From: Flavobacteriaceae bacterium | GTDB lineage: Bacteria > Bacteroidota > Bacteroidia > Flavobacteriales > Flavobacteriaceae | DNA: 64,000 nt | Direction of reading: 5' to 3' | Assembly: GCA_013043685.1 (NCBI GenBank) | Contig: JABDNT010000046.1 | Location: 62,001 to 126,000, forward strand | Shown: positions 39,856-53,800 of the stretch, in pieces | Position numbering within the stretch: position 1 is the first letter of the stretch | How the letters are laid out: each line of letters opens with the position of its first letter | Made by a program: the position numbers and the translations under genes | Notes under the pieces: model-generated | Told to the model about the DNA's origin: nothing | Database searches by the model: none | What the model saw: the letters and a program-made list of their open reading frames with translations, nothing else

Positions 39856-41775
39856 TTATCTGCCTCGCTTAATGAGTTTTAATTGCCCGGCACCGTTATC
39901 CGAATCCAGAGATACTACATATAATCCGTTGGCCAGTTGGTCACTTAGTTCAAAATTAAGTTCATTACGACCTCTGTTCAGCTGAACGGCTTGTTGCGAA
40001 ATAATTTGTCCGCTTACACCGTATATACTTAATGTAGCACTGGACGGCCTGCTGCTTTCAATTACGAGGTTGAAATATTTCTGAACCGGGTTAGGATATG
40101 CAGTGAGCTCGATCGATTTAACTTCCGGAAAAGGAAAGAATTCTACAGCTAAGAGATCCCGAGGCACGGCAATGAAAACATCTTCCTGAAGTGTTTCAAT
40201 ACTTGAATTACGCAGAATGATCTCTGAAAGCTTCGTGCTCTTTAATTCATCGATTTCCCCCGTAGTAAAAGCAGGGTCATTCTCATAGTAATAACGATCA
40301 CCGTCACGAAGTGCCTGGAACTGTAATTTAAGTATTTCATGCAATCCTTCACCCACAAGTGCATTCGGTAAGTGGTCCTCACTCATAAAGCCGATCCATG
40401 GATCCAGTTTTCCAATATCACCTTCGTATACGGTAGCTAAATTACCACTCAGGACCGGGTCTGAAGTCAAGCTATTGAAATCAGCATGAGGTGTCAGTGA
40501 AAGGTCGGTTCGGAACGTATTATAATCGGGAATCCCACGTTCGCGTGCACGCGCAAGGTTTATGGACAGAAGGTCTATACCACCAGAACCGGGTTGACCG
40601 AAAAGGAAGTTTCGTATATCATCCATGATCAGTGGATCTACCAGCTGATGTTCCTGGGCCGCCAGTCCCCTGAAAAAAGGTTCAATACCGCCTTCATCTT
40701 TCAGGATGGCAGGATTAAAAAAGCCATCTCTAAGATCAACGGCACCAAAAACCCAGTCGTCACCATTCTCTTCATAGCGAACCAGGCGTCCGTTCACCAT
40801 AGTATGACCAAAACGATAGCCTGCAGCAGAAAAAGTATTGAGGATGTTAGGCTCAACAGTGTCATCATATCCTGCATAAGGATCTATCTGGATACCAATG
40901 TGAGGTAAGAACTCTTCGTAAGTCACTACCTGAATCAGTGCTCCAACTATTTTTCTTACTCTCTGAAAGATCTCTTCATCATTCCAAGAAGGATTCTGAT
41001 CCTTGATTTCGTCACAAAGCCTGTTGTGTTCACGAACCCACAGCGTGTGGAAACAGGAGAGTCCAGGCTGCTCGTTAACTCGAATATCCCCTCCCACAAA
41101 GAATTTCTCGGGCAGTGGAAATCCATCCAGAACCATAAACGGAGCAGCAGGGTCAATTGCACTGTCAAATTCCCCATCTACGGTATTCCACGGTAAAAGA
41201 TCTCCGGAGGAGGTCTTCAGCTTTCCATCCACAAATGTGCGCAGCCAGTTGGCTCGATTGATGTCGCTTCCATATACTGCCGAGCCATCAATATAGCTGG
41301 TGATATCGTTGATGTGTTTTCTCGGATTGTTAATAGAAGTACCCGTTGCAGGATCGGACTTAGATCTGAACATACGCAGAGTCTCGTTCCCCGTGCAGTT
41401 CGGGTCGAACAGAGGTTCACACATGGGAACCGGAATATCGTTGGGTTCGTCGAAATTATCATCGTTCAAATTAACATCGTGATCTATAAACTGGCCCCAG
41501 CCCCAGATAAAGTCACTTAATTCCAACTCGTTGGCAATGAATTCGGTCTGGCTTCCAATAGCATTACTTATCTCCCTGGGATTAGGTCTGTCCTGGCCTC
41601 CTGGCTCGCTTATAAGATCGCCAAAGGCATTGGTCGCAAAATTTCTGAAATGCGCATCAGCAGCACCCCACTCGGGATTGTTTAAATTGTTGTTCGTTCC
41701 GTCATAGCTTCGGTTTAGCTGAGCAAAACCTTGTATGGAAATAAAGAAAGCGGTGATAAGTATTAATGTTTTCAT
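39856..41775 (-). CDS. secreted animal-type heme peroxidase with T9SS sorting domain
   Basis: A 639-residue secreted peroxidase. I trim to ATG 41775, which gives the signal peptide KTLILITAFFISIQGFAQ; the longer frame (to 41904) runs into the neighbouring gene. The distal site is FIWGWGQFIDHDVNLND, and the proximal His is in AGYRFGHTMVNGRLVRY. LWVREHNRLCDEI and GSAVYGSDINRANWLR are further family marks. The C-terminus (ELTAYPNPVQKYFNL, TLSIYGVSGQIISQ, GLYVVSLDSDNGAG, LKLIKRGR) is a type A T9SS domain. It oxidises small substrates with peroxide outside the cell; the natural substrate is unknown. Confidence 0.93.
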   Translation of the reverse strand: MKTLILITAFFISIQGFAQLNRSYDGTNNNLNNPEWGAADAHFRNFATNAFGDLISEPGGQDRPNPREISNAIGSQTEFIANELELSDFIWGWGQFIDHDVNLNDDNFDEPNDIPVPMCEPLFDPNCTGNETLRMFRSKSDPATGTSINNPRKHINDITSYIDGSAVYGSDINRANWLRTFVDGKLKTSSGDLLPWNTVDGEFDSAIDPAAPFMVLDGFPLPEKFFVGGDIRVNEQPGLSCFHTLWVREHNRLCDEIKDQNPSWNDEEIFQRVRKIVGALIQVVTYEEFLPHIGIQIDPYAGYDDTVEPNILNTFSAAGYRFGHTMVNGRLVRYEENGDDWVFGAVDLRDGFFNPAILKDEGGIEPFFRGLAAQEHQLVDPLIMDDIRNFLFGQPGSGGIDLLSINLARARERGIPDYNTFRTDLSLTPHADFNSLTSDPVLSGNLATVYEGDIGKLDPWIGFMSEDHLPNALVGEGLHEILKLQFQALRDGDRYYYENDPAFTTGEIDELKSTKLSEIILRNSSIETLQEDVFIAVPRDLLAVEFFPFPEVKSIELTAYPNPVQKYFNLVIESSRPSSATLSIYGVSGQIISQQAVQLNRGRNELNFELSDQLANGLYVVSLDSDNGAGQLKLIKRGR

Positions 41776-41822
41776 AAAAGCTAATATAAAAGTTAATCGG
41801 AAATCATCACAATTTGTCGTCT

Positions 41823-42554
41823 TTAATTTATTAACCGGTATACCTCTTTGAAAGGAATTCTGAAACGTGGCCCATAGATCCCTTTTTCGTCGCGGATGCC
41901 GCACCCTATCACCATGTTGATCTCTGCACGATAAGGTATCTTTAAAATCCGCTTCACTCTCAGGGTATCACTTCCTTCCATCGGACAAGTATCATAACCG
42001 ATGGACGCCATACTGATCATAAAATTCTGTGCTGCCAGGCCGGCACTTTTATGTGCGACCACCCGCATATCACTGGTCCTGGCCTGCCGGTATATGGGCC
42101 TGAATAGCCCTACGAGCTGAAAAGCCAGGAATTTCAGCCATCCGAAGATACCCAGGAAATCGAAATAAGTAACTGGAATTAGCTTACCATAATAGTTTTG
42201 GGCCATTTTTCTCCGTTTCTCAAGGCGCGGAGTCATTTCGGTATTGTTGAATCCTTCTTCGATAAACTTAAGATTAGCCCTGGCCCGTTGTCTCCAAAGA
42301 TCTTTTCTTGCAACAACAACTACCAGTTGTTTTGCCGTTTTCGATGCATTTTGATTGAAACACGCAACAGCTATTCTACGAATGATCTCCGGATTGGTAA
42401 TGTGATAGAATTCCCAAAGTTGAAGGTTACTGCTTGTGGCAGCTAAAGTGGCATTTTTAAGACATTGTTCAACCTTTTGGGTGTCGATGGGCTCCTCCTT
42501 GAAAACTCGAACCGCACGACGGTAGGCAATTGCCTCTGAAACCGTTTTTTCCAT
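41823..42554 (-). CDS. nitroreductase-family flavoprotein
   Basis: A 243-residue FMN-dependent nitroreductase fold. The N-terminus AIAYRRAVRVFKEEPIDTQK contains the FMN phosphate-binding R-R-x-V-R-x-F pattern, followed by CLKNATLAATSSNLQLWEF. Later AHKSAGLAAQNFMISMASIG and a C-terminal VIGCGIRDEKGIYGPRFRIP. A roughly 30-residue insertion (YGKLIPVTYFDFLGIFGWLK) after residue 115 is larger than in classic NfsB. Substrate unknown. It ends close to the peroxidase start in the same direction. Confidence 0.88.
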   Translation of the reverse strand: MEKTVSEAIAYRRAVRVFKEEPIDTQKVEQCLKNATLAATSSNLQLWEFYHITNPEIIRRIAVACFNQNASKTAKQLVVVVARKDLWRQRARANLKFIEEGFNNTEMTPRLEKRRKMAQNYYGKLIPVTYFDFLGIFGWLKFLAFQLVGLFRPIYRQARTSDMRVVAHKSAGLAAQNFMISMASIGYDTCPMEGSDTLRVKRILKIPYRAEINMVIGCGIRDEKGIYGPRFRIPFKEVYRLIN

Positions 42555-42651
42555 TAATGTGTAATAGTTTGAAAAACGGAAGATAAGATATTAAACCTGT
42601 ACCGTTCTATAACGTAGGTTCGATTTATTCAAATTTAATCTGTTGATTCTT

Positions 42652-43392
42652 TTATTCCTTCTTTTTCTTCACCGGTAAAACTTCTTCAGGGAAAGGGAAG
42701 AGGATGGTCGAATTCTTTTCAGAAGCAATATTAGATAAGGTTTGGTAAAGCCTTAATTTTATAGCTGAAGGTGATTGATCAATGATCTGTCCGGCCTCGA
42801 ATAATTTTTGTGCGGCTTGTTCTTCAGCTTCAGCAAGAATTATCCTGGCTCTACGCGAGCGTTCTGCCTCGGCCTGATTGGCCATCATTCTTCTCATATT
42901 TTCAGGAAGCTGAATGTCTTTGATCTTGACATCATTTATTTCGATACCCCATTCCATGGTTTCCATTTCTACAATTTCCTTTATGTTTTTACCCATTTCT
43001 TCGCGCTTCGAAAGAATGGTATCCAGTTCTACCTTACCACAAACATCTCTCAATGCAGCTTGCGCTAATTGTGAGATGGCGAATTTATATTCTTCTACTT
43101 CGAGTACGGCTTTTTCAGGGTCATTTATTCTGAAAAAGACCACTCCGTCTATACTACAGGGTACGTTATCTTCAGTCATTACTTCCTGGGAAACTATGTT
43201 GATTGTAATAACCCGAATGTCCACAACCTGGATGGTTTCAACCACAGGGATGATCCAACGGAAACCGGGTTGCAGGGTTTTTATATACTTTCCAAATCGA
43301 AATTTTAGTGCTCTTTTGTATTCAAAGACCACGCGAATCCCCAATAATAGGAATACAACAAAAACTATACTGAATAATACAATTGGATTCAT
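42652..43392 (-). CDS. slipin/stomatin-like SPFH membrane protein
   Basis: A 246-residue Band 7 protein. One N-terminal membrane segment (PIVLFSIVFVVFLLLGIRVV) is followed by FRFGKYIKTLQPGFRWIIPV, the slipin marker, then VSQEVMTEDNVPCSIDGVVF and a C-terminal coiled region RRMMANQAEAERSRRARIIL. It organises membrane microdomains. Slipins are often paired with an NfeD gene, but none is next to this one. Upstream in the same direction is the first micropeptide with its own terminator. Confidence 0.93.
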   Translation of the reverse strand: MNPIVLFSIVFVVFLLLGIRVVFEYKRALKFRFGKYIKTLQPGFRWIIPVVETIQVVDIRVITINIVSQEVMTEDNVPCSIDGVVFFRINDPEKAVLEVEEYKFAISQLAQAALRDVCGKVELDTILSKREEMGKNIKEIVEMETMEWGIEINDVKIKDIQLPENMRRMMANQAEAERSRRARIILAEAEEQAAQKLFEAGQIIDQSPSAIKLRLYQTLSNIASEKNSTILFPFPEEVLPVKKKKE

Positions 43393-43496
43393 AACAAATA
43401 TTTTAAAGTTGAATATTATACGTACTGAATGACAGCGTTTTAAAGATACGATTCCTTACAGGTTCTGGAATGATAAATATCATGTAAGAGCACAAA

Positions 43497-43527
43497 AAAA
43501 CCTCCCGTTATTTCAGCGGGAGGTTTT
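43497..43527. terminator. terminator downstream of micropeptide 1
   Basis: AAAACCTCCCG and CGGGAGGTTTT form an 11-bp GC-rich hairpin with a 9-base loop; on the minus strand it is followed by an uninterrupted T-run. It begins about 26 bases past the stop of the micropeptide, so that transcript should be very short and separate from slipin. Confidence 0.9.
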
Positions 43528-43553
43528 ATGGATTCCGGTTGGTGTGGAGAAGA

Positions 43554-43652
43554 CTATCTGTGGATTGCATAACTACTGGCTTTCGCAAATTCAGCTAATT
43601 TTACATTCCACTTACTAAGTTTCTCACTCCAAAGTTGTTTCCAATTTTTCAT
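43554..43652 (-). CDS. micropeptide with ASSYAIHR C-terminus, copy 1 (32 residues)
   Basis: An ATG-started frame of 32 codons: MKNWKQLWSEKLSKWNVKLA followed by EFAKASSYAIHR. It is basic and Trp-rich (Trp 4, 8, 15) and would form an amphipathic helix; there is no signal peptide or membrane segment. Copy 2 at 49180 aligns without gaps over 25 residues with 17 identities, including an identical ASSYAIHR end, which strongly supports real coding. A terminator follows within 27 bases. I do not recognise the family. Possible roles are a regulatory, membrane-associated or antimicrobial-like peptide, but none is shown. Confidence 0.75.
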   Translation of the reverse strand: MKNWKQLWSEKLSKWNVKLAEFAKASSYAIHR

Positions 43653-43880
43653 AACTCGAATTTTAGGGTTATGCCATCAGAAATCCAACAAGCGTGCCAT
43701 TAGTTGAAGCAATTCTCTAACTGTTTGAAATTGAATAGAATAAAACTATTTTGAACATATATCCTAAACTATATTATGTAAGAATATGATGCCGACCTAT
43801 TCCTCTCAATTCACTCCATTTAATTTCATTTTAACAGCCGGATTTTGTATCTTTTTAAGAACAATTCAAATACTCATAAC

Positions 43881-44573
43881 TTGAAACGTCTGGTGCTGAT
43901 TATGGCTATATTTCTTACGGCTTTTGCGAATTGCCAGTCCGATTATTCAGAACGTCGTGCCAAAATGGTAAGGGGACAACTGGAATCACGTGGAATAAAG
44001 GATAAAGCAACATTGGAGGCAATGCGCAAAGTACCCCGGCATATGTTTGTGCCAGAAAATGCAAAAGGCAAGGCTTATATCGACGCACCACTTACCATTG
44101 GGAAAGGCCAGACCATTTCTCAGCCATATATTGTCGGCTATATGACAGAACAGCTCCAGCTAAAGCCAACAGATAAGGTACTGGAGATAGGGACAGGTTC
44201 TGGTTACCAGGCTGCGGTCCTGGCTGAAATTGTTTCCGAGGTCTACTCCATAGAGATCATTGAATCCCTGGGTGAGACTGCGGCAAACCGACTGAAAAGT
44301 CTTGGTTACGATAACGTCGAGGTGAGAATTGGTGATGGCTACCTGGGATGGCCGGAAAAAGCGCCGTTCGATGCTATTATTATAACCGCCGGTATAGATC
44401 ATGTTCCTCAGCCTCTAATAGACCAGTTGGCGGAAGGCGGCCGGCTAATTGTTCCTGAAGGGGCCAGGCGAAGTACACGCGACCTTATGTTGCTTAGGAA
44501 AAAGAAAGGTAAGATCAAACGTAAATTCCTTATCCCTGTTGTTTTTGTTGAATTTCAGCGGAAGAACGATTAA
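43881..44573 (+). CDS. pcm: exported protein-L-isoaspartate O-methyltransferase
   Basis: Repairs isoaspartyl residues using S-adenosylmethionine. The signatures are VPRHMFVPENAKGKAYIDAP, PLTIGKGQTISQPYIVGYM, VLEIGTGSGYQAAVLAEIV and IITAGIDHVPQPLIDQLAEG. A signal peptide precedes the domain (KRLVLIMAIFLTAFANCQ), so the enzyme probably works in the periplasm, as in many Bacteroidota. The start is uncertain: TTG 43881 gives a complete signal with basic residues, ATG 43902 gives a shorter one, and an in-frame TTG lies at 43845. Monocistronic. Confidence 0.92.
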   Translation: MKRLVLIMAIFLTAFANCQSDYSERRAKMVRGQLESRGIKDKATLEAMRKVPRHMFVPENAKGKAYIDAPLTIGKGQTISQPYIVGYMTEQLQLKPTDKVLEIGTGSGYQAAVLAEIVSEVYSIEIIESLGETAANRLKSLGYDNVEVRIGDGYLGWPEKAPFDAIIITAGIDHVPQPLIDQLAEGGRLIVPEGARRSTRDLMLLRKKKGKIKRKFLIPVVFVEFQRKND

Positions 44574-44710
44574 ACTGATTCAGTGTTTTTGGGGCATTAA
44601 TTGATCATTCTTTATTCAGAATCATTATTTATTTCATTAAAATGTGACGGCAATGATGCAGGTCATAGGAATCTATATCGTTGATTATTTACTTTGCAGA
44701 AAGTTAAGTT

Positions 44711-45232
44711 ATGGCCGCTTTGCTCGTCATAATTATCCTCTTATTACTTCTGTTAGGCTATCTTTTGTGGATGCCGGTTGTATTGAAAATTGATACTGAC
44801 ACCAACGAATATTATCTTCAATTGAAAGGCCTGGCGAAGGCATCGGTATTAGGGGACGATAAGGAAGTATTAAAGGTTAAACTTAATGTACTGTTTTTGA
44901 ATTTCAACTTTTACCCGCTTCGAAAAAGAAAGGCTTCGAAAAAGAAAAAGCTAAAGGCTAAAAAAGGGGAAGAAGATGCGGAAAAGAAGAAGAGAAATTG
45001 GACCAATGAAGGGCGCAGAGCCTGGCGGGTACTTAAAACGTTTGAAATTAAACAGTTGCTGGTGGAACTGGACACCGGTGATTATGTATTGAATGCGAAA
45101 CTATATCCGGTCTTTTTCATGCTGAACAGGTGGCAAGGGAGTTTCGCCATTAATTTTACGAATAGAAATCGATTAGCACTAATTGTACAAAATCGACCCA
45201 TATATATACTTAAATCTATTATTAATATTTAA
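44711..45232 (+). CDS. YtfI/DUF2953-like membrane protein
   Basis: A 173-residue protein with one N-terminal membrane helix (LLVIIILLLLLLGYLLWMPV), a beta-rich domain (LKVKLNVLFLNFNFYPLRKR) interrupted by a very basic Lys/Glu linker, and a C-terminal half RVLKTFEIKQLLVELDTGDY to AINFTNRNRLALIVQ. The layout resembles DUF2953, for example YtfI of Bacillus. Its position just before a GerW/YtfJ-family gene repeats the Bacillus pair. It ends 10 bases before the partner start. Confidence 0.7.
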   Translation: MAALLVIIILLLLLLGYLLWMPVVLKIDTDTNEYYLQLKGLAKASVLGDDKEVLKVKLNVLFLNFNFYPLRKRKASKKKKLKAKKGEEDAEKKKRNWTNEGRRAWRVLKTFEIKQLLVELDTGDYVLNAKLYPVFFMLNRWQGSFAINFTNRNRLALIVQNRPIYILKSIINI

Positions 45233-45242
45233 AACTTTTGTG

Positions 45243-45617
45243 ATGGTCTTACATTTTGAAGAATTATTAAAACAAATAACTGAATTTATCAGGAATGAAG
45301 CGAAAACAGAAACCGTTGTAGGCGAACAATTTAAATTGGGAGAATTCATATGTGTTCCTGTAATTAAAATCGGAATGGGATTTGGTTCCGGTGAAGGAGA
45401 AGGTATTGAGAAGAAAACAAAAACTAAAACCGGTTACGGAATGGGAGCTGGTGCCGGAATGGGCATTGAACCACTTGGATTCCTAGTAACCAAAGGTGAG
45501 GAAATTAGCTTCGTCGAAGCAGGAAAGGCTCATGGATTAGCCGCTGCATTCGAGAAGGTACCGGAAATGATCGAGAAGATCTATGAAAACCGAGGCAAAG
45601 AAACAGAAACTGCTTAG
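45243..45617 (+). CDS. GerW/YtfJ-family protein
   Basis: A 124-residue soluble protein, the family that includes sporulation protein YtfJ/GerW. The conserved pattern is VVGEQFKLGEFICVPVIKIG, then a Gly-rich stretch (GFGSGEGEGIEKK, GYGMGAGAGMGIEPLGFLV) and a helical C-terminus. The ATG at 45243 is preferred; a longer frame overlaps the upstream gene. Flavobacteria do not sporulate, so the role must be different from germination. Coupled with the YtfI-like gene. Confidence 0.88.
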   Translation: MVLHFEELLKQITEFIRNEAKTETVVGEQFKLGEFICVPVIKIGMGFGSGEGEGIEKKTKTKTGYGMGAGAGMGIEPLGFLVTKGEEISFVEAGKAHGLAAAFEKVPEMIEKIYENRGKETETA

Positions 45618-45659
45618 GTGATTGGAGGAGTTCTGTAGATCAACTCGAATTTTAGGCGT

Positions 45660-45700
45660 GCCGCAAGGTCGGATTATATCACTAATTCCGGTCTTGCGGC
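45660..45700. terminator. hairpin between convergent genes
   Basis: GCCGCAAGGTCGG (45660-45672) pairs with CCGGTCTTGCGGC (45688-45700) over 13 bp with two G-U pairs. It lies between the convergent gerW-like and M28 genes. It lacks a good T-run, so termination efficiency is uncertain. Confidence 0.6.
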
Positions 45701-45713
45701 GATATATTTCCAA

Positions 45714-47258
45714 CTAGTTTCCCTTGCGATCCGGAGATCTGGGCGTAGGCCACTCCATTTGTTTCCCTGTCCTACTGCTCACCGGTAATACGGCGCGATC
45801 CCTGGATGTGGTTTCGGGATCTTCACTGGCCATGTAGGTTAAAATAGTCGTTAAGATCACGTTATTTCTCACATCATCAAACACAATTTTATCGTAAGTA
45901 TCACGGTTGGTATGCCAGGTGTAATTCCAGTATGCCCAGCTTAGCGAACTCAAGCTGAACGCAGGAGCACCTGCGGCCTGGAATGAAGCATAATCCGAAC
46001 CACCTCGGGCAGGCCTCCCGGGGAAGGTTGTTTCAATTTCCGAAGTTATTTCACCTGGAACCGCATTTAGCCAGCGGGACAGGTAATCGTATGAATGCAA
46101 GAAACCACCACCCGACAAACGCACAACACGCCCGGTTCCGTTATCCTGATTAAAAACTGCCTGCACCCCATTAACGATCTCCGGATGATCCTCTACAAAA
46201 GCGCGTGAACCGTTCAGGCCTTGCTCTTCGCTTCCCCATAAGCCCACGAGTATTGTCCGCTTCGGATTAGGGTAATGTTTTTTCAGGATTCGCAATGCTT
46301 CCATCATTACTAAAGTTCCTGTTCCATTATCTGTGGCTCCGGTAGCGCCATCCCAAGAGTCGAAATGTGCTGAAAGGATAACGTATTCATCGGGTTTTTC
46401 AGAACCTTTTATCTCAGCAATAGTATTGAAAGTTGGCATGGAGCCAAGCTCTTTCGATTCTGCCACAATATGTATCCTGGGTTTCTGGCCAGATTCCACA
46501 AGCCTGTATAACAGACCGTAATCCTCCAGTTCAAGGTCCACTGTAGGTATGGATTTGGTCCTTGCTCCAAAGATCTTATTTACTCCGAAACCTCTTGACC
46601 AGTTCGACATAACAATACCGGCAGCACCGGCTTCCTCTAGGGCGGCAGGCAAAGTTCTCCTGTTATGCCCGGTATTCTGCATATTGGTCCGCCAGTCTTT
46701 GGTTAATGCGTCCCTTTCATCTTTCATCTTCTGAAAGGATTCCTCTGTAGCGTACTCTTCCCAGTTATAATCAGGCCTTCCTGTGGGTTGTTGCATGGAG
46801 ATCATAACTAATTTTCCTTTAACGCTGGGCAACCATTTTGCGAAATCGGCAGAATCCTTTACACGAGGTAAAATAGCAAGTTCGGCCATTACACCTTCCT
46901 TGCCGGTTCCCGGGCTCCACGCCAGTTGCATTCCTCTTAAGCTTTGCACCCTGGGATAAACCATATCTATATGAGTAACACCTCGTTCCCATCCGCGCCA
47001 TTCACCATATTGTTCATTGCGGGCGCTAACGCCCCATTCGGCGTACTTGGCTACGGCCCAGTCATGTGCATTTTTCATCTGTGGCGTCCCCACTAGTCTC
47101 GGGCCTATCTGATCCATGAGTTCATGCCCAAGTTGTTTTAGTTGTGAGTTTTCGTTCGCTTCGCTGATCATAGCTTCGATCACAGGGTCTTTTTCCTGGG
47201 CAAAAATGGAAGTACAGCCTATTAATAGTACGAATCCAAGGGAGAGAAATCTTTTCAT
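45714..47258 (-). CDS. M28-family zinc aminopeptidase
   Basis: A 514-residue exported peptidase (signal KRFLSLGFVLLIGCTSIFA). The N-terminal half includes a protease-associated domain (SVKGKLVMISMQQPTG to EEAGAAGIVMSNWSRGFG). The catalytic core has ILSAHFDSWDGATGATDNGT (His and Asp ligands), VGLWGSEEQGLNGSRAFVED (Glu base and ligand), NQDNGTG and a late WHTNRDTYDKI His ligand. It trims peptides in the periplasm or outside the cell. Full length; no T9SS domain. Confidence 0.93.
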   Translation of the reverse strand: MKRFLSLGFVLLIGCTSIFAQEKDPVIEAMISEANENSQLKQLGHELMDQIGPRLVGTPQMKNAHDWAVAKYAEWGVSARNEQYGEWRGWERGVTHIDMVYPRVQSLRGMQLAWSPGTGKEGVMAELAILPRVKDSADFAKWLPSVKGKLVMISMQQPTGRPDYNWEEYATEESFQKMKDERDALTKDWRTNMQNTGHNRRTLPAALEEAGAAGIVMSNWSRGFGVNKIFGARTKSIPTVDLELEDYGLLYRLVESGQKPRIHIVAESKELGSMPTFNTIAEIKGSEKPDEYVILSAHFDSWDGATGATDNGTGTLVMMEALRILKKHYPNPKRTILVGLWGSEEQGLNGSRAFVEDHPEIVNGVQAVFNQDNGTGRVVRLSGGGFLHSYDYLSRWLNAVPGEITSEIETTFPGRPARGGSDYASFQAAGAPAFSLSSLSWAYWNYTWHTNRDTYDKIVFDDVRNNVILTTILTYMASEDPETTSRDRAVLPVSSRTGKQMEWPTPRSPDRKGN

Positions 47259-47450
47259 TTGTAAGAAGTTGTAATTTTAATAAATTGATTCTTTAAAAAT
47301 ACAGCTTCTTGGCGGAACGGTTTCCCAACATCTTAAATTTAATAATTGATAATGTGATAAATATTTCAGAACCAACAAAATAATAAGACGAATGTGTAAC
47401 ATTTTCATAAAAGTTTACTCTTGTATATATAACTAGTTATCAATCAAAAA

Positions 47451-49103
47451 ATGAAAAAAATCATCTTACTCTTCATCAGTTTCCTGATGTTACAGGCAAC
47501 TGCACAATCGACTTTTACCGCCCAACAATGGCAGGACGACCTCAAATTTCTTCAACATACGGTTCATAAGGACTATCCATTTCTCTTCAAAAAAGTTACT
47601 TCGGAAGCCTTTGATGCGGCTGTCGAGAAACTCCACAAACAGATTCCAAATCTGGCGCAACATGAGATCAGTATAGGATTTGCCCGGATAATAGGAATGT
47701 TCAAATACGGACATACCCGTATGGGATGGCATGGCAATCCCACAGCTTTAAGACAATTCCCTGTTAATCTCTATCGTTTCTCAGACGGAGTCTATGTTCA
47801 GGGAGTCCATAAGGACTACTCTCAAGCTTTAGGAGCTAAGGTCCTCAGGGTAGGGAATATGTCTGTTGAAGAAGCATTAAAAGCTGTGTATCCAGTGGTA
47901 CCTGTAGAAAATGAGCAATTCTTTAAAGCATACGGATTCCTTTATCTTATGAGTCCCGAAGTATTACATGCTCAGGGGGTTGTTTCGGAATTATCAGACC
48001 AGCTTGAGCTGACCCTTGAAAAGGAAGGAAAGACCTTTAAGACCACATTTGAAGTACTTCCTGCAGGGAAGATGCCACCCAGAACCTACGGATATATACA
48101 AACTTCAGATGAGTGGCTTGATGTGCGTGCCTCAGGGGAAACACCACTATATCTAAAACAACTTGACAAAATATACTACTACGAATACCTGCCGGATTCT
48201 AAAACCGTATACGTTCGGCAGAGCCAGATTCAGGATGATCCAACTGAACCGATCCCTGCATTTTATACCCGGGTGTTCGATTTCATCGAAAAGAATGATG
48301 TGCAACGCCTTGTACTGGATGTGCGGTTGAACGGGGGAGGGAACAATTACAAGAACAAAGCGGTGGTGACCAGGATCATAGAATCTAAGAAGATAAACCA
48401 GGTTGGAAATTTTGTTGTTGTTCTGGGCCGGAGAACATTTTCGGCATGTCAGAACCTTGTGAATGAACTGGACAATTACACCAATGCTGTATTTGTTGGG
48501 GAGCCCACAGGTGAGAATATCAATTTTTACGGTGATAATAATGAGGTGATCCTTCCCAACACTAAAACCCCGGTTTATCTCTCCTTTGCCTGGTGGCAGG
48601 ACAAACCACAATGGGAAAACGACGATTGGCTGGCCCCGCATATAGCCATCGATATGAGTTTTGAAGAATATAAAACCAATAAGGATCCGGTATTGGAAGC
48701 TGCGCTCAGCTTTGACGATTCTGATTTTGTACTCGATCCAATGCAGTATATGACGGAGCTATATACCTCGGGACAACAGGAAAAACTGGCTACCGAAGTA
48801 CCTAAAATGGTAAGAGACCCCAGGTATAAGTTTTTTAACTTCGAAGGAGAACTGAATGAAGCAGGGTATAATTCTATACAACGTGGTGACCCTCAAACGG
48901 CTATTGCTATTTTCACCTTTATAACTCAATTATTCCCGGAATCGGCAAATGCATGGGATAGTTTAGCCGAAGGTTATTTAGAGGCTGGAGACAAGGAAAA
49001 GGCGACAGAATACTATCAAAAAGCGCTGAAGATGGATCCTGATGGACCCACTGGTAAGAATGCGAGCGGTATGTTGCGGAAAATTGAAGTCGGCTCTCAT
49101 TAA
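47451..49103 (+). CDS. exported S41-like peptidase with C-terminal TPR
   Basis: A 550-residue exported protein (signal KKIILLFISFLMLQATAQ). Residues about 230-430 resemble the tail-specific protease (S41) core, with RLVLDVRLNGGGNNYKNKA and a Ser in VLGRRTFSACQNLVNELDNY in the nucleophile position; the Lys partner is not located with certainty. The C-terminal about 60 residues form TPR motifs (SANAWDSLAEGYLEAGDKEK, ATEYYQKALKMDPDGP). Possibly a peptide-binding protein rather than an active protease. Monocistronic, with a terminator. Confidence 0.85.
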   Translation: MKKIILLFISFLMLQATAQSTFTAQQWQDDLKFLQHTVHKDYPFLFKKVTSEAFDAAVEKLHKQIPNLAQHEISIGFARIIGMFKYGHTRMGWHGNPTALRQFPVNLYRFSDGVYVQGVHKDYSQALGAKVLRVGNMSVEEALKAVYPVVPVENEQFFKAYGFLYLMSPEVLHAQGVVSELSDQLELTLEKEGKTFKTTFEVLPAGKMPPRTYGYIQTSDEWLDVRASGETPLYLKQLDKIYYYEYLPDSKTVYVRQSQIQDDPTEPIPAFYTRVFDFIEKNDVQRLVLDVRLNGGGNNYKNKAVVTRIIESKKINQVGNFVVVLGRRTFSACQNLVNELDNYTNAVFVGEPTGENINFYGDNNEVILPNTKTPVYLSFAWWQDKPQWENDDWLAPHIAIDMSFEEYKTNKDPVLEAALSFDDSDFVLDPMQYMTELYTSGQQEKLATEVPKMVRDPRYKFFNFEGELNEAGYNSIQRGDPQTAIAIFTFITQLFPESANAWDSLAEGYLEAGDKEKATEYYQKALKMDPDGPTGKNASGMLRKIEVGSH

Positions 49104-49130
49104 CCTGTCCCATGGTTAATGGTAAAAAAT

Positions 49131-49154
49131 AACCCCTCATGGAAGTGAGGGGTT
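49131..49154. terminator. bidirectional terminator, S41-like gene and micropeptide 2
   Basis: AACCCCTCA and TGAGGGGTT form a 9-bp stem around a 6-base loop with T-rich flanks on both strands. It ends the S41-like gene and lies 26 bases past the stop of micropeptide 2. Confidence 0.85.
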
Positions 49155-49179
49155 TTTCTTTTCTCTAAACAAAAAAGAA

Positions 49180-49293
49180 CTATCTGTGAATGGCATAGCT
49201 ACTGGCTCTTGCGTATACGGCCAATTTGGCTTTCCAAACTTTTAGTTTTTCATCCCAATTGTTAAAGAATTTTTTGCGTAGTTTTTTCATCAT
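49180..49293 (-). CDS. micropeptide with ASSYAIHR C-terminus, copy 2 (36-37 residues)
   Basis: Two adjacent ATGs (49293 and 49290) start a frame of 37 or 36 codons: MKKLRKKFFNNWDEKLKVWK then AKLAVYARASSYAIHR. It is strongly basic at the N-terminus, with the W-x-E-K-L-x-x-W-x-x-K-L-A core and the identical C-terminal octapeptide of copy 1. There is no signal peptide. It is the only frame here compatible with the paralogue, and a terminator follows 26 bases later. Family and function are not recognised. A 436-base region without genes precedes it. Confidence 0.75.
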   Translation of the reverse strand: MMKKLRKKFFNNWDEKLKVWKAKLAVYARASSYAIHR

Positions 49294-49729
49294 ATATCAT
49301 TGTTTTATGGGTTATTAAATCATTTAATGCGTCCTTAAACAATAGATAAGAGGAAAGTGTAATTTATAATCGAAAATCGATTAAAAGAGGTAAGATAAGG
49401 GGGTATAGTATAAATGTAAGAAATTTCTGGTTATTACAATTACACTTTTCAAACTATTCGATGAAATGTATAGAAAATCAGATGTTCATTAGTGGCTAGT
49501 TGTAATTTATATCATGGCAAACACGCTTATCTACCATGTTCAAAATCAACACCCTCATTATCAATATTTTAAATACTAATTATCGTCAATATCAGTGTTT
49601 CAGGCTGATTTATGTTCACACGCTTTTACATGTTCTGTCCTCAACTTATCTTTCAAATTCTTAAATGAAAAAATAAAAAACTGTGATTTTTTCAGTACCA
49701 TGTTAACTAATAGAGTAGAACATCATTGA
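49294..49729. other. 436-base AT-rich intergenic region
   Basis: No convincing coding frame or RNA gene is visible. It should hold the divergent promoters of micropeptide 2 and the ECF sigma factor. I see an imperfect long-range inverted repeat: GAAAGTGTAATT near 49353 and AATTACACTTTTC near 49438. No clear riboswitch or structured RNA could be folded by eye. Confidence 0.4.
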
Positions 49730-50212
49730 ATGAGCAAGGAAGAAAGCTTTACAAGGATTATTAGAGACAACGAAGGGATCATTTACAAGATCACGAGGAT
49801 CTATACCAGTACTGTTGAAGATCAGAACGATCTCTACCAGGAAATAGTTTTTCAGCTTTGGAAAAGTTTCGACTCATTTCGAGGAGATGCCAAGGTAAGT
49901 ACCTGGATGTATCGCATCGCATTAAATACGGCCCTGTTTCATTCCAAAAGAGCTAAAAAGAGAGGGTATAATGTGAGCCTGGACGGAGTTGTGCTTCAGC
50001 ATGAAAATTACGATCCGGTGTTTGAAGAACGTCTAAAGGTAGTCTACGAACAGATCAGAAGCTTAAATGATATTGAAAAGGGAATCATACTCTTATTCCT
50101 GGAAGGAAAGAAACACGAAGAGATTGCTTCGATTACCGGATTTAGCAAATCTAATATCGGTACTCGAATAGGAAGGATAAAAGAAAAGCTTAGAAAACAA
50201 ATAATTAAATAA
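49730..50212 (+). CDS. ECF-type RNA polymerase sigma factor
   Basis: A 160-residue sigma-70 family member with only regions 2 and 4. Region 2 reads NEGIIYKITRIYTSTVEDQN and LYQEIVFQLWKSFDSFRGDA, with STWMYRIALNTA. Region 4 has EEIASITGFSKSNIGTRIGR as helix-turn-helix. Its partner gene starts seven bases later and probably encodes its membrane regulator. The target promoters are unknown; autoregulation is usual for this class. Confidence 0.93.
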   Translation: MSKEESFTRIIRDNEGIIYKITRIYTSTVEDQNDLYQEIVFQLWKSFDSFRGDAKVSTWMYRIALNTALFHSKRAKKRGYNVSLDGVVLQHENYDPVFEERLKVVYEQIRSLNDIEKGIILLFLEGKKHEEIASITGFSKSNIGTRIGRIKEKLRKQIIK

Positions 50213-50218
50213 TTGACT

Positions 50219-50833
50219 ATGGAACTTGAAGAAATGCAAACACTTTGGACTCAGATGAGTAGTCAGATTGAAAGTCAGAAAAAACTAACAAACAAACTTA
50301 TTATGGAAATGACTCAGCAAAAATTCAGGAATCGTTTTTACACTTTGTCCATATACGAAACGATCGGAGCGGTGATCTGTTTTGTCTTTGCGTTTTTTAT
50401 ACTGCTCAACCTGGATAAAATGAACAGCTGGTATCTTATGGCCTGCAGCCTGGTAACTTTATTGTTCTTAATTATACTGCCGGTACTGTCCCTCCGTGCT
50501 ATTCACGGCATGAGGACTCTGGATTTGTCGAATCGTAGTTATAAGGAAACGATGGTGGATTTCACCCGTAAAAGAAAGAATATGTTATTATTTCAAAGGA
50601 TTGCAGTTATGTTAAGTGTAGTAATGATGTGGGTGTCTATCCCAGTATTTTCAATGATTATGAATAACAAAGATTTCTTTGCTATGAAACACAATCCCTG
50701 GTTATGGGTATTTACTGCAGCTGTGACGGTTGGAGTGGTCCTATTTTCAAGATATGGCTACAGGGGGTATCGGAAGGTGACTGCCTCGGCAGAAAATGTC
50801 TTGAAGGATCTGGAAGATCAGACAGGTAATTAA
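50219..50833 (+). CDS. membrane partner of the ECF sigma factor
   Basis: A 204-residue protein with an N-terminal cytoplasmic coiled segment (EEMQTLWTQMSSQIESQKKL) and four hydrophobic segments (for example TIGAVICFVFAFFILLNLDK, LFLIILPVLSLRAIHGM). I infer an anti-sigma or sensor role from its position immediately behind the sigma gene; no zinc-binding anti-sigma motif is present. The ATG at 50219 is preferred over the TTG at 50213. The transcript ends at the hairpin at 50841. Confidence 0.75.
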   Translation: MELEEMQTLWTQMSSQIESQKKLTNKLIMEMTQQKFRNRFYTLSIYETIGAVICFVFAFFILLNLDKMNSWYLMACSLVTLLFLIILPVLSLRAIHGMRTLDLSNRSYKETMVDFTRKRKNMLLFQRIAVMLSVVMMWVSIPVFSMIMNNKDFFAMKHNPWLWVFTAAVTVGVVLFSRYGYRGYRKVTASAENVLKDLEDQTGN

Positions 50834-50840
50834 AACAAAA

Positions 50841-50865
50841 AAACCACGAAGTAAATTCGTGGTTT
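50841..50865. terminator. bidirectional terminator
   Basis: AAACCACGAA and TTCGTGGTTT form a perfect 10-bp stem with a 5-base loop, with A- and T-rich flanks, between the convergent sigma operon and giant propeller gene 2. Confidence 0.9.
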
Positions 50866-50884
50866 TGTTTGTCTTAACGTATTA

Positions 50885-53800
50885 TTATTCTTCTACGTAA
50901 GGTGCGCCCGCAGCCTTCAGTTCAGTGTAGATCCCATCGAGTTTTTGTTTTGCGGCATTTAATTTGGAAACCGCTGTGTTCAATTCTTTCTCAACGATTT
51001 GCATTTGAGATTTGTTCAAACTTGTCGGCCCATAAGTGGCTCGTTCTACACCGCGATAGATGGCAAACATTCGTTCGCCAACGGTTGGCCTGTCTTTTTC
51101 ACCAATTTCACCTTTTGCCGGGTTTCCGTAAAAATCCCCGGATAGATCCTGCAGGCTTTTTATTACGCTTTTTAGTTCGTTGTCAGTGGTACCTGGTTTT
51201 GCTGCACTCCTGGCTAAGGCGATCTTCATTGCTTTAGCGCGCTTCATTGCTTTATTCATATCCATATTAAACCTGGAAACAGACTTCGAAGTAGCTTCAT
51301 ATGAACGCCAGAAAGCAGAAACATCATCCATTGAGGAACCCGGGAGTGAGTTTTTATAAAGCTGCTTCACACTGAAGGATACAGGACCATCGAGTTTTCT
51401 CGTCTGTCCTTTTTCAGAAAGATACATTTCAACCGAATAATTACCCGGTGGTGCCAGGAATGCAGATCTTCCGGTATCATTTTTATCGTTAAGTCCAATA
51501 GCATCAAGATCCGGGTATCGCAGGTCCCAGCTAATCCTATTCATACCTTTCATGGGTTTTGTATGAATCTTTCTCACAACAGCGCCATTCGCATCACTCA
51601 CTACAAAGAGTAACTGGGGATCGTCTTCGTTTACCTCTTCTGCCAGAGCATCCCAACCGGGGAACGAAACTGCTTCGGTATCCTTGTTTTTTTCTGAATC
51701 TTTGCGTTGCTGCTCCATTGTTTTAGGTGCATCCTTCAGATAGTATGTAAAAGTTGCCCCAAATTCCGGATTAGGGGCCAGATAATGCGAATCACCCTGA
51801 CTCCCTTTACCGGGACCAAAGCTTAGCTGTGGCCGCGGTACATACCACCAGGCATCACGAACCGAGAATAATTTGGCTTCTTGTTGAAGAGTTGCATCGC
51901 TCATTTCCCTTAAGGCAGTATAATCGTCCAATATGTAAAATCCTCTTCCGAAGGTGGCACCCACAAGATCATTCTCCCTTTTCTGAATCGCCAGATCCCT
52001 GAACGAAATAGTAGGGACACCACCTTCCAGTTTGGTCCATTTCCCGCCACCATTGATCGTAAAATATACTCCGAATTCTGTTCCAAGGAACATCAGCCCT
52101 GGTTTAACATGATCCTGTACAAGACGCCATACCACTGTTCTTTTCGGGATGTTGCTAGCGATAGAAGACCAGGTCCGGCCCTTATCGGTACTCTTCAGCA
52201 GATAAGGATTTAAATCGCCGTATTTATGATTGTCAAGTGCCACATATACTGTATTGGCATTGAACATATCCGCTTTAATATCGTTAACAAATGCGGTAGA
52301 TGGTACACCGGGTAAGTTCCCAACAGCAATCCTCCTCCAGTTATTTCCTCCGTCCTCAGTAACCTGTATTAGTCCGTCGTCTGTTCCGGCATAGATCAAT
52401 CCTTGTTGTTTAGGCGATTCTGCCAGTGATGTTATCGTATTATATGTAGACATCGCATACATGTCCCAGGGGGCATCCCAACTTTGCTGTTTTCCCATAA
52501 TGGGTAATGTGATACGCTCTTCATCTTTTGTAAGATCACCGGATATAGCTGTCCAATCGTCACCGCGATTCTCACTTTTCCATACACGTTGCGAAGCAAA
52601 AAAGATAGTAGTAGGGGAGTGCGGACTCACCAGTATGGGAGAATCCCAGTTAAAACGTTCGTGATCTTCATTTTCACCCGGCTGTGGCATGATATCTACT
52701 ACTTCACCGGTACTCATATCAATACGTGATAAAGTTCCCTGCTGTCTTTCTGCATAGACGATATTAGGATTTCCGGGTTCCGTAGCCGGTTGGTGGCCAT
52801 CCCAATTAAGGATGACACTCCAGTCGCTGCTTTGTATACCATGTACATTGTCGGTGCGGGAAGGTCCGCGTTGCGTACTGTTATCCTGTGTTCCGCCATA
52901 AATGTTGTAGAATGGTTCAGAATCGTCCACGGCCATTTTGTAATACTGGGTAACAGGCAGATTCTCCACGTATTTCCATGTTTTCGTAAGATCAAAAGAT
53001 TCATATAATCCACCGTCGGAACCTACGATCAGGTAATTAGGATCACTTTTTCTGAACGCAATGGCGTGATTATCTCCATGCTTGTTCTTTTCATTCATGC
53101 GGTAGAAGGTCTTTCCGCCATCCTCCGAGATCTGAAGATTGTTATCCATCAGGTATAAACGGCCTTCCTGGTGGGGCGAAGCATATAGCTCCTGGTAGTA
53201 ATGCGGTCCTGTTCCGCCGGAAATTGTTTCCGACATTTTATTCCAGGAACCACCTCCATCCTCCGAACGATATAAACCACCTTTCCGGCGATCCAGTTCT
53301 ATTGCAGCATAGATCACATTGGGATTGTGATAAGAGATCGCTAAACCGGTTTTACCTTTCCAGGATGTAGGGATGCCATTGGTAAGCTTGGTCCAATTAT
53401 TACCCCCATCGGTACTTTTATACAGTGCTGTTCCAGGGCCTCCACCCATATAGGCAGCTACAGTACGGTGACGCTGCCATGTTGCGGCATACAGTACATC
53501 CGGATCACGCGGATCCATGACCAGGTCTGTAGCACCTGTCCATTCGTTGTCACCTAAAGTCTTCTTCCAGGTTTGGCCGCCATCGGTTGTTTTATATACT
53601 CCGCGATCTCCTCCCTTCCTCCATAGTGGTCCTTGTGCGGTTACCCAAACCACATTGCTGTCGAAGGGGTGAACAAGAATTCGCGAGATGTGTTGAGAAT
53701 CTTTAAGACCCATATTCTTCCAGGTCTTGCCGCCATCTTCGCTCTTATAGACACCATCTCCATAACCTACGTGACGTCCTCCCGAGTCTTCACCCGATCC

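Follow-up and report, generated by a model that had tools for sequence, protein, structure and literature searches.

The 64,000-nucleotide window analysed here, a stretch of a Flavobacteriaceae genome, carries two related micropeptide genes of a previously undescribed family that, judged from its sequences, is conserved across many Flavobacteriaceae genera. The first gene, copy 1, is best read from its upstream sequence as an unrecognised member of the sigma-54 stress regulon, and its product likely helps the cell to cope with protein or envelope damage. The main functional clue is given by promoter elements specific to each paralogue, which were absent from the first-pass annotation of this DNA.

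Copy 1 had been described as a 32-codon ORF, and this ORF, ending in TAG, is present on the reverse strand and encodes the peptide MKNWKQLWSEKLSKWNVKLAEFAKASSYAIHR (Table 1). The homologous second ORF that had been claimed was also confirmed. This copy 2 encodes the peptide MMKKLRKKFFNNWDEKLKVWKAKLAVYARASSYAIHR, and a count by eye on both peptides gave 17 identities over the last 25 residues, with the same C-terminal octapeptide, ASSYAIHR. When the window was scanned in six frames without gaps, copy 2 was recovered with a score of 94 (18 identities to copy 1 in 32 residues), and no third relative with a score of at least 38 was detected. No further copy was found in the genome (2,999,578 bases in 83 contigs), where the matches at E≤10 were copies 1 and 2 only.

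Table 1. Features of the two micropeptide loci in the window
Feature	Position	Strand	Remarks
Micropeptide ORF, copy 1	43554..43652	-	32 codons + TAG; family conservation
Tail codons (ASSYAIHR, near-invariant) with the stop, copy 1	43554..43580	-	Third positions vary, residues almost fixed
Initiation region, copy 1	43653..43665	-	Conserved among the copies: T at -1, many A at -13 to -10
Sigma-54 type -24/-12 site TGGCACGCTTGTTG, copy 1	43686..43699	-	47 nt upstream of ATG
3'-spacer motif CRCCAACCGGAA, reading CACCAACCGGAA in this copy	43533..43544	-	Retained in the close group (six copy-1 orthologues)
Intrinsic terminator, copy 1	43494..43527	-	Stem starts 26 nt 3' of the stop
Micropeptide ORF, copy 2	49180..49293	-	37 codons + TAG
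GAAATTTCTTACATTTA, upstream element of the copy-2 class	49411..49427	-	Conserved; TACATTTA resembles the sigma-A -7 box TAnnTTTG
Terminator hairpin, copy 2	49126..49159	-	Between convergent genes, possibly common with the S41 gene

Homologues in other Flavobacteriaceae, on which the first-pass annotation had made its proposal depend, were found. At the trusted family threshold (E≤1e-7), 34 matches were obtained in 25 of the 397 Flavobacteriaceae genomes sampled, and at E≤0.1 a profile of 47 distinct members, widened with its own matches, gave matches in 44 of the 397. The search of the source genome was free of any tail pattern, and so was a single-sequence search of 299 Flavobacteriaceae genomes, in which orthologues with the ASSYAIHR tail were recovered. 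Thirty-six named loci were retrieved with the tail pattern; their genera include Aureitalea, Aureisphaera, Altibacter and Gilvibacter, and other loci belong to uncultured records labelled Ulvibacter, Pukyongia, Dokdonia, Flavobacterium, or only Flavobacteriaceae, Bacteroidetes or Cytophagaceae. One sampled genome, G366, corresponds to Aureitalea sp. L0-47, the coordinates and the peptide being identical, and it shares its genus label with the window. Eighty-nine protein clusters matched the family at E≤0.1, Zobellia among them, and the few names given read "hypothetical protein". For the counts that follow, 55 copies were taken from loci L001-L092 with an expression that fixes two alanines and limits the other tail residues, leaving out other tails such as that of L051; since both the loci and the 55 copies were selected by their tail, its conservation is partly built in. 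One alignment (A2) comprised 47 of the 53 distinct peptides, and a second (A4) joined the two window peptides to 43 of the 89 proteins retrieved. More distant tails read ACSYAIHR, ASSYAINR, ATNYAMNR, AASYALNH and GASYALQH. At one locus (L139) three divergent members stand in tandem, with the tails GASYALQH, GASYALQH and GASYAIQH, and by eye a terminator-like hairpin follows each of them.

No convincing match outside the Flavobacteriaceae was obtained in samples of the order and the phylum (246 and 296 genomes, many of them members of the family). Five genomes matched in each sample, four of them being the source genome and three family members; the outside matches, in G502 (E 0.009, one internal stop) and G632 (E 0.003, tail unmatched), were set aside. 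A USP-domain protein with the family tail, encoded on a 555-base contig (P0086), was also set aside as a likely chimera. The first-pass annotation knew of no described family, which agrees with the lack of any match to either window peptide at E≤10 in the Pfam, NCBIfam, PHROGs and PADLOC profiles. When three relatives were scanned against PHROGs and PADLOC, two of them had weak PHROGs matches (best E 0.033). A mobile or phage origin was considered and rejected: ten pattern matches were found in viral contigs, none of which was a relative by tblastn, and the window peptides had no PHROGs or PADLOC match. In the literature covered here, no paper with the tail was found, and wider searches gave nothing on the family among the matches listed. 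This adds a conserved, undescribed micropeptide family in bacteria whose small proteins have been little studied.

The codon pattern and the open frames indicate that purifying selection acts on the peptide. Six copy-1 orthologues gave pS 0.42, pN 0.07 and dN/dS 0.12, and three copy-2 relatives gave the same dN/dS of 0.12, in line with the protein-level conservation that had been proposed. Differences at codon positions 1, 2 and 3 numbered 45, 39 and 101 in the copy-1 group (6 sequences) and 20, 14 and 47 in the copy-2 group (3 sequences), and none of the 34 strong matches contained an internal stop. Over the last nine codons pN/pS was 0.11 (55 copies), against 0.57 before them (53 copies), a contrast that is partly built in by the selection of tails. 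Within the tail, the third base of the Ala, Ser, Ile, His and Arg codons is variable and arginine switches between AGR and CGN; together, the 55 copies use each of the four Ala codons as well as five Arg codons. Their stop codons were TAA in 31, TAG in 24 and TGA in none, whereas 264 long ORFs of the same loci had 154, 70 and 40, respectively (Fisher p 0.0005, uncorrected for relatedness). The relatives, the low dN/dS and the open frames thus support the first-pass reading of a real micropeptide, and the ORF is almost certainly a gene that would be translated. That reading had also called the peptide Trp-rich. Tryptophan is common (at least one residue in 43 of the 53 distinct peptides, mean 1.5), but the defining feature of the family, as aligned here, is the C-terminal A-S-S-Y-A-I-H-R-stop.

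A site of the sigma-54 type precedes copy 1, and the usual -24/-12 geometry predicts a transcription start at about position 43673. The pattern TGGCAY-N5-TTG was found within 250 nt upstream of 17 of the 55 copies and of 1 of the 236 control genes; L059, a copy outside these 17, has just 34 nt of upstream sequence. This consensus is independent of the sequences examined; the copy-2 element and the AAACC...GTC element described below were noticed in the same sequences, so that their enrichment is post hoc. An [AT]TTC-N-TAC-N-TTTA element, mostly GAAATTTCKTACATTTA, lies 91-185 nt upstream of 15 copies, including copy 2, and of none of the 236 controls; copies with this element never have the sigma-54 site (0 of 17 overlap). 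The ECF-like promoter element AAACC-N15-17-GTC precedes 12 of the 55 copies (e.g. L007, L012 and L068), six of them with a sigma-54 site as well, and 1 of the 236 controls. All three elements are missing upstream of seventeen of the 55 copies, including L059. Since the sigma-54 pattern precedes just 17 of the 55 copies, this control is not general to the family.

The genome encodes RpoN (PF04552 at 8.6e-51) and two sigma-54 activators with a full PF00158 domain. Exact sigma-54 sites were found 70 nt before the start codon of dnaK and 142 nt before that of lon (Pfam names), and sites with one mismatch 73 nt upstream of groES and 48 nt upstream of grpE; the latter two are weaker support, because a one-mismatch site within 250 nt upstream was found for 4 of the 56 window genes. 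In the whole genome the pattern occurs 52 times and the reversed pattern 31 times, and 11 of the 52 sites are intergenic with respect to ORFs of at least 60 aa (those of the micropeptide, dnaK and lon, plus eight before other genes or without a gene in the stretch); hence most of the 52 sites are probably due to chance. SM4, the sigma-54 motif of Flavobacterium psychrophilum, is found before groESL, lon, dnaK, grpE-dnaJ, htpG, clpB and skp, among others, and its authors connect the SM4 genes with protein quality control, with envelope stress and with gliding motility; the SM4 table also holds a sigma-54-driven small RNA, Rfp36 (all from the sections of PMC9723704 covered here). Predicted sigma-54 sites in Flavobacteriia are likewise described, in the part of PMC12316311 covered here, as enriched on genes of the GrpE-group chaperone and of ATP-dependent proteases. 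With these data, copy 1 is probably under sigma-54 control, which ties one copy of the family to a defined stress regulon, as predicted from its promoter.

The first-pass annotation had placed a terminator about 26 bases after the stop of copy 1, and the stem indeed begins at 26 nt. This hairpin belongs to copy 1, since the PCMT ORF diverges from it (start at 43845 or 43884, forward strand) and the SPFH ORF starts only at 43392 (reverse strand), a layout that bears out the claim of a dedicated terminator. The hairpin of copy 2 may be shared with the S41 gene, which ends at 49103 on the forward strand, because it lies between these convergent genes. With our own scoring script, a terminator-like hairpin was found after 40 of 54 copies, 15 of them starting exactly 26 nt past the stop, whereas among 256 long ORFs from the same loci 41 had one, and among 54 shuffled sequences none did. 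Upstream of the ATG, T was found at -1 in 49 of 53 copies and A at -3 in 12 of 53; A at -3 is favoured in Flavobacterium johnsoniae (PMC6847099, in the part covered here).

Two copies were present at E≤1e-7 in nine of the 25 genomes. In eight of these nine both copies lie on one contig and on the same strand, 4.0-14.1 kb apart, and in G278 they lie on two contigs; this layout is what a tandem duplication would leave. Tandem copies also occur in some genomes. PCMT and SPFH flank copy 1 in the window and at L041/L057, L058, L060 and L063, and copy 2 faces an S41 gene in the window and at L004, L060, L071 and L075. In a close relative (L055, G198) the PCMT side of copy 1 is kept; SPFH was not found there, and the peptide is followed, at a distance of about 150 bases, by a peroxidase gene. 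Copy 2 and a divergent ECF sigma factor gene (49730-50212, forward strand; Pfam) have a common intergenic region of 436 bp (49294-49729). The commonest neighbours in 62 loci were M28 peptidase (11), SPFH (10) and S41 (9), and no gene was common to all loci. These common neighbours look like local synteny, which was all that a search for a partner in the gene neighbourhood yielded.

With regard to the peptide itself, AlphaFold (45 sequences) predicted one helix over residues 2-31 (mean pLDDT 85.5, pTM 0.39), a lone helix that says little on function. The hydrophobic moment before the tail exceeded that of more than 95% of shuffles in 34 of the 53 peptides, including both window copies (p 0.035 and 0.016), and was non-significant in the other 19; the median net charge of the 53 was +5. 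The model thus lends support to the amphipathic helix without a signal that had been proposed. By inspection, the longest stretch free of K, R, D and E measures 7 residues in each window copy, and a hydrophobic membrane-spanning segment, as in a type I toxin, is not apparent.

The explanation that we favour is that copy 1 would be transcribed by sigma-54 RNA polymerase under stress, together with the heat-shock chaperones, as a single-gene mRNA of about 180 nt, and that its product would act as a short amphipathic helix. The variable, basic amphipathic half may serve as a general surface-binding helix, for a membrane or a partner, and the near-fixed tail with its free carboxylate as a specific dock. 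Since its eight conserved residues are adjacent, they occupy every face of the helix end, and this end may therefore be clasped rather than lipid-facing. The octapeptide would dock on one conserved partner, which is likely to belong to protein or envelope quality control because of the regulon; this docking role is a possibility that we put forward tentatively. Copy 2, with its own conserved promoter-like element, may supply the same activity under other conditions. As a whole, a sigma-54-driven stress micropeptide whose amphipathic helix docks through its octapeptide in protein or envelope quality control falls just short of being probable. A bolder version would see a class of heat-shock micropeptides in which the ASSYAIHR tag plugs into one quality-control machine and retunes it under stress, copy 2 setting the basal level from its own promoter. 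One candidate for the machine is an AAA+ protease of the membrane, another the SPFH scaffold of such a protease; copy 1 has an SPFH gene beside it. This version is quite unlikely, and we offer it as a speculation. With its eight nearly unchanging residues, the tail could serve directly as bait for the partner, and it makes the question of binding, seldom answered for micropeptides, directly testable.

Several other explanations have to be weighed against this one. A chance ORF would have only the shortness of 32 codons in its favour, and it is practically out of consideration in view of the family, the codon pattern, the open frames and a dN/dS well below 1 among relatives. A small regulatory RNA with a secondary ORF, or a dual-function RNA, would agree with the short predicted transcript and its terminator. 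The CRCCAACCGGAA motif is moreover retained in the 3' spacer of the six close orthologues despite diverged synonymous sites, and none of 200 shuffles folds as well as the window transcript with its terminator (z -4.74), z being -2.14 after removal of the terminator. Across the family, however, the mean z without the terminator was near background (-0.52 for 54 copies against -0.10 for 120 control stretches, with values below -2 in 6 of 54 and 9 of 120, respectively), which led us to reject a structured RNA. Base pairs changed on both sides were found in the terminator stem only, substitutions are tolerated much more readily where they are synonymous, and a search of positions 41000-52000 against Rfam gave two matches at E≤1, both far below the gathering scores. 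The RNA reading is therefore disfavoured and very improbable. A leader peptide, whose conserved C-terminus would stall the ribosome at the stop and control read-through into a downstream gene, is disfavoured too. The concentration of conservation in the eight codons that precede the stop, the absence of TGA stops among the 55 copies and the terminator behind the ORF would all fit it, but the downstream genes vary between loci and are often convergent, as where copy 2 faces S41, and the hairpin starts beyond the reach of a stalled ribosome. A constant same-strand downstream gene and a conserved alternative RNA fold, which attenuation would call for, were sought and neither was found, so that we give this reading little credence.

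The two remaining alternatives accept a functional peptide. A basic helix might act in the cytoplasm under stress, bound to the ribosome, to RNA or to an RNA polymerase factor; the net charge and a predicted helix over almost the full length are consistent with this, and sigma-54 co-regulation specifies no target. Against it, the PDB sequence search with copy 2 gave nothing better than E 0.9, which is chance level, and the significant amphipathicity of 34 of the 53 peptides points rather to a surface of lipid or to a groove in a protein. Such a target is possible, but on the unlikely side. A leaderless, secreted bacteriocin-like peptide is improbable. The amphiphilic N-terminal helix and C-terminal receptor-binding part of LsbB and enterocin K1 (EntK1), as described in the part of PMC5413573 covered here, match the architecture of a cationic amphipathic helix with a conserved tail, and the tandem copies in some genomes could be seen in the same light. 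Nevertheless, the gene neighbourhood of each copy is preserved in several genera, the promoter is of the stress type, and no recurring transporter-like or immunity-like neighbour was recognised in the clusters of the 62 loci, most neighbours of which are unannotated. The tail is predicted to be helical here and is unstructured in EntK1 and LsbB (PMC5413573, same part).

As regards known systems, the favoured stress micropeptide resembles the SpoVM and MgtR types by description, these being membrane micropeptides of about 26-32 residues linked to proteases, although we know of no counterpart of the C-terminal octapeptide among them. Ribosome-arrest leader peptides of the TnaC type are likewise short ORFs with conservation just before the stop; unlike TnaC, the present family has no constant downstream gene and its terminator starts 26 nt past the stop. 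LsbB-like bacteriocins carry the C-terminal motif KxxxGxxPWE, which is unmatched here, the family tail being ASSYAIHR or a near variant. The family shares with LsbB and enterocin K1 the short leaderless peptide, the cationic amphipathic N-terminal helix and a conserved C-terminal part, and differs from them in tail sequence, in the predicted helicity of the tail and in the stress-type promoter (compared with the part of PMC5413573 covered here). In the genome under study, one sigma-54 activator gene (G000:C51; L142, L171) lies about 3 kb from groES beside a gene which, from our reading of its sequence, we take to be LptE-like. A difference from the SM4 regulon of F. psychrophilum is that the promoter selection shown there holds no peptide of this family (PMC9723704), whereas copy 1 is a predicted member here. 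The likeness to that regulon, as far as the same sections go, lies in the -24/-12 site, in its exact occurrence before dnaK and lon and with one mismatch before groES and grpE, and in the similar company of an activator gene, which in both genomes has groES and an lptE-like gene close by (PMC9723704).
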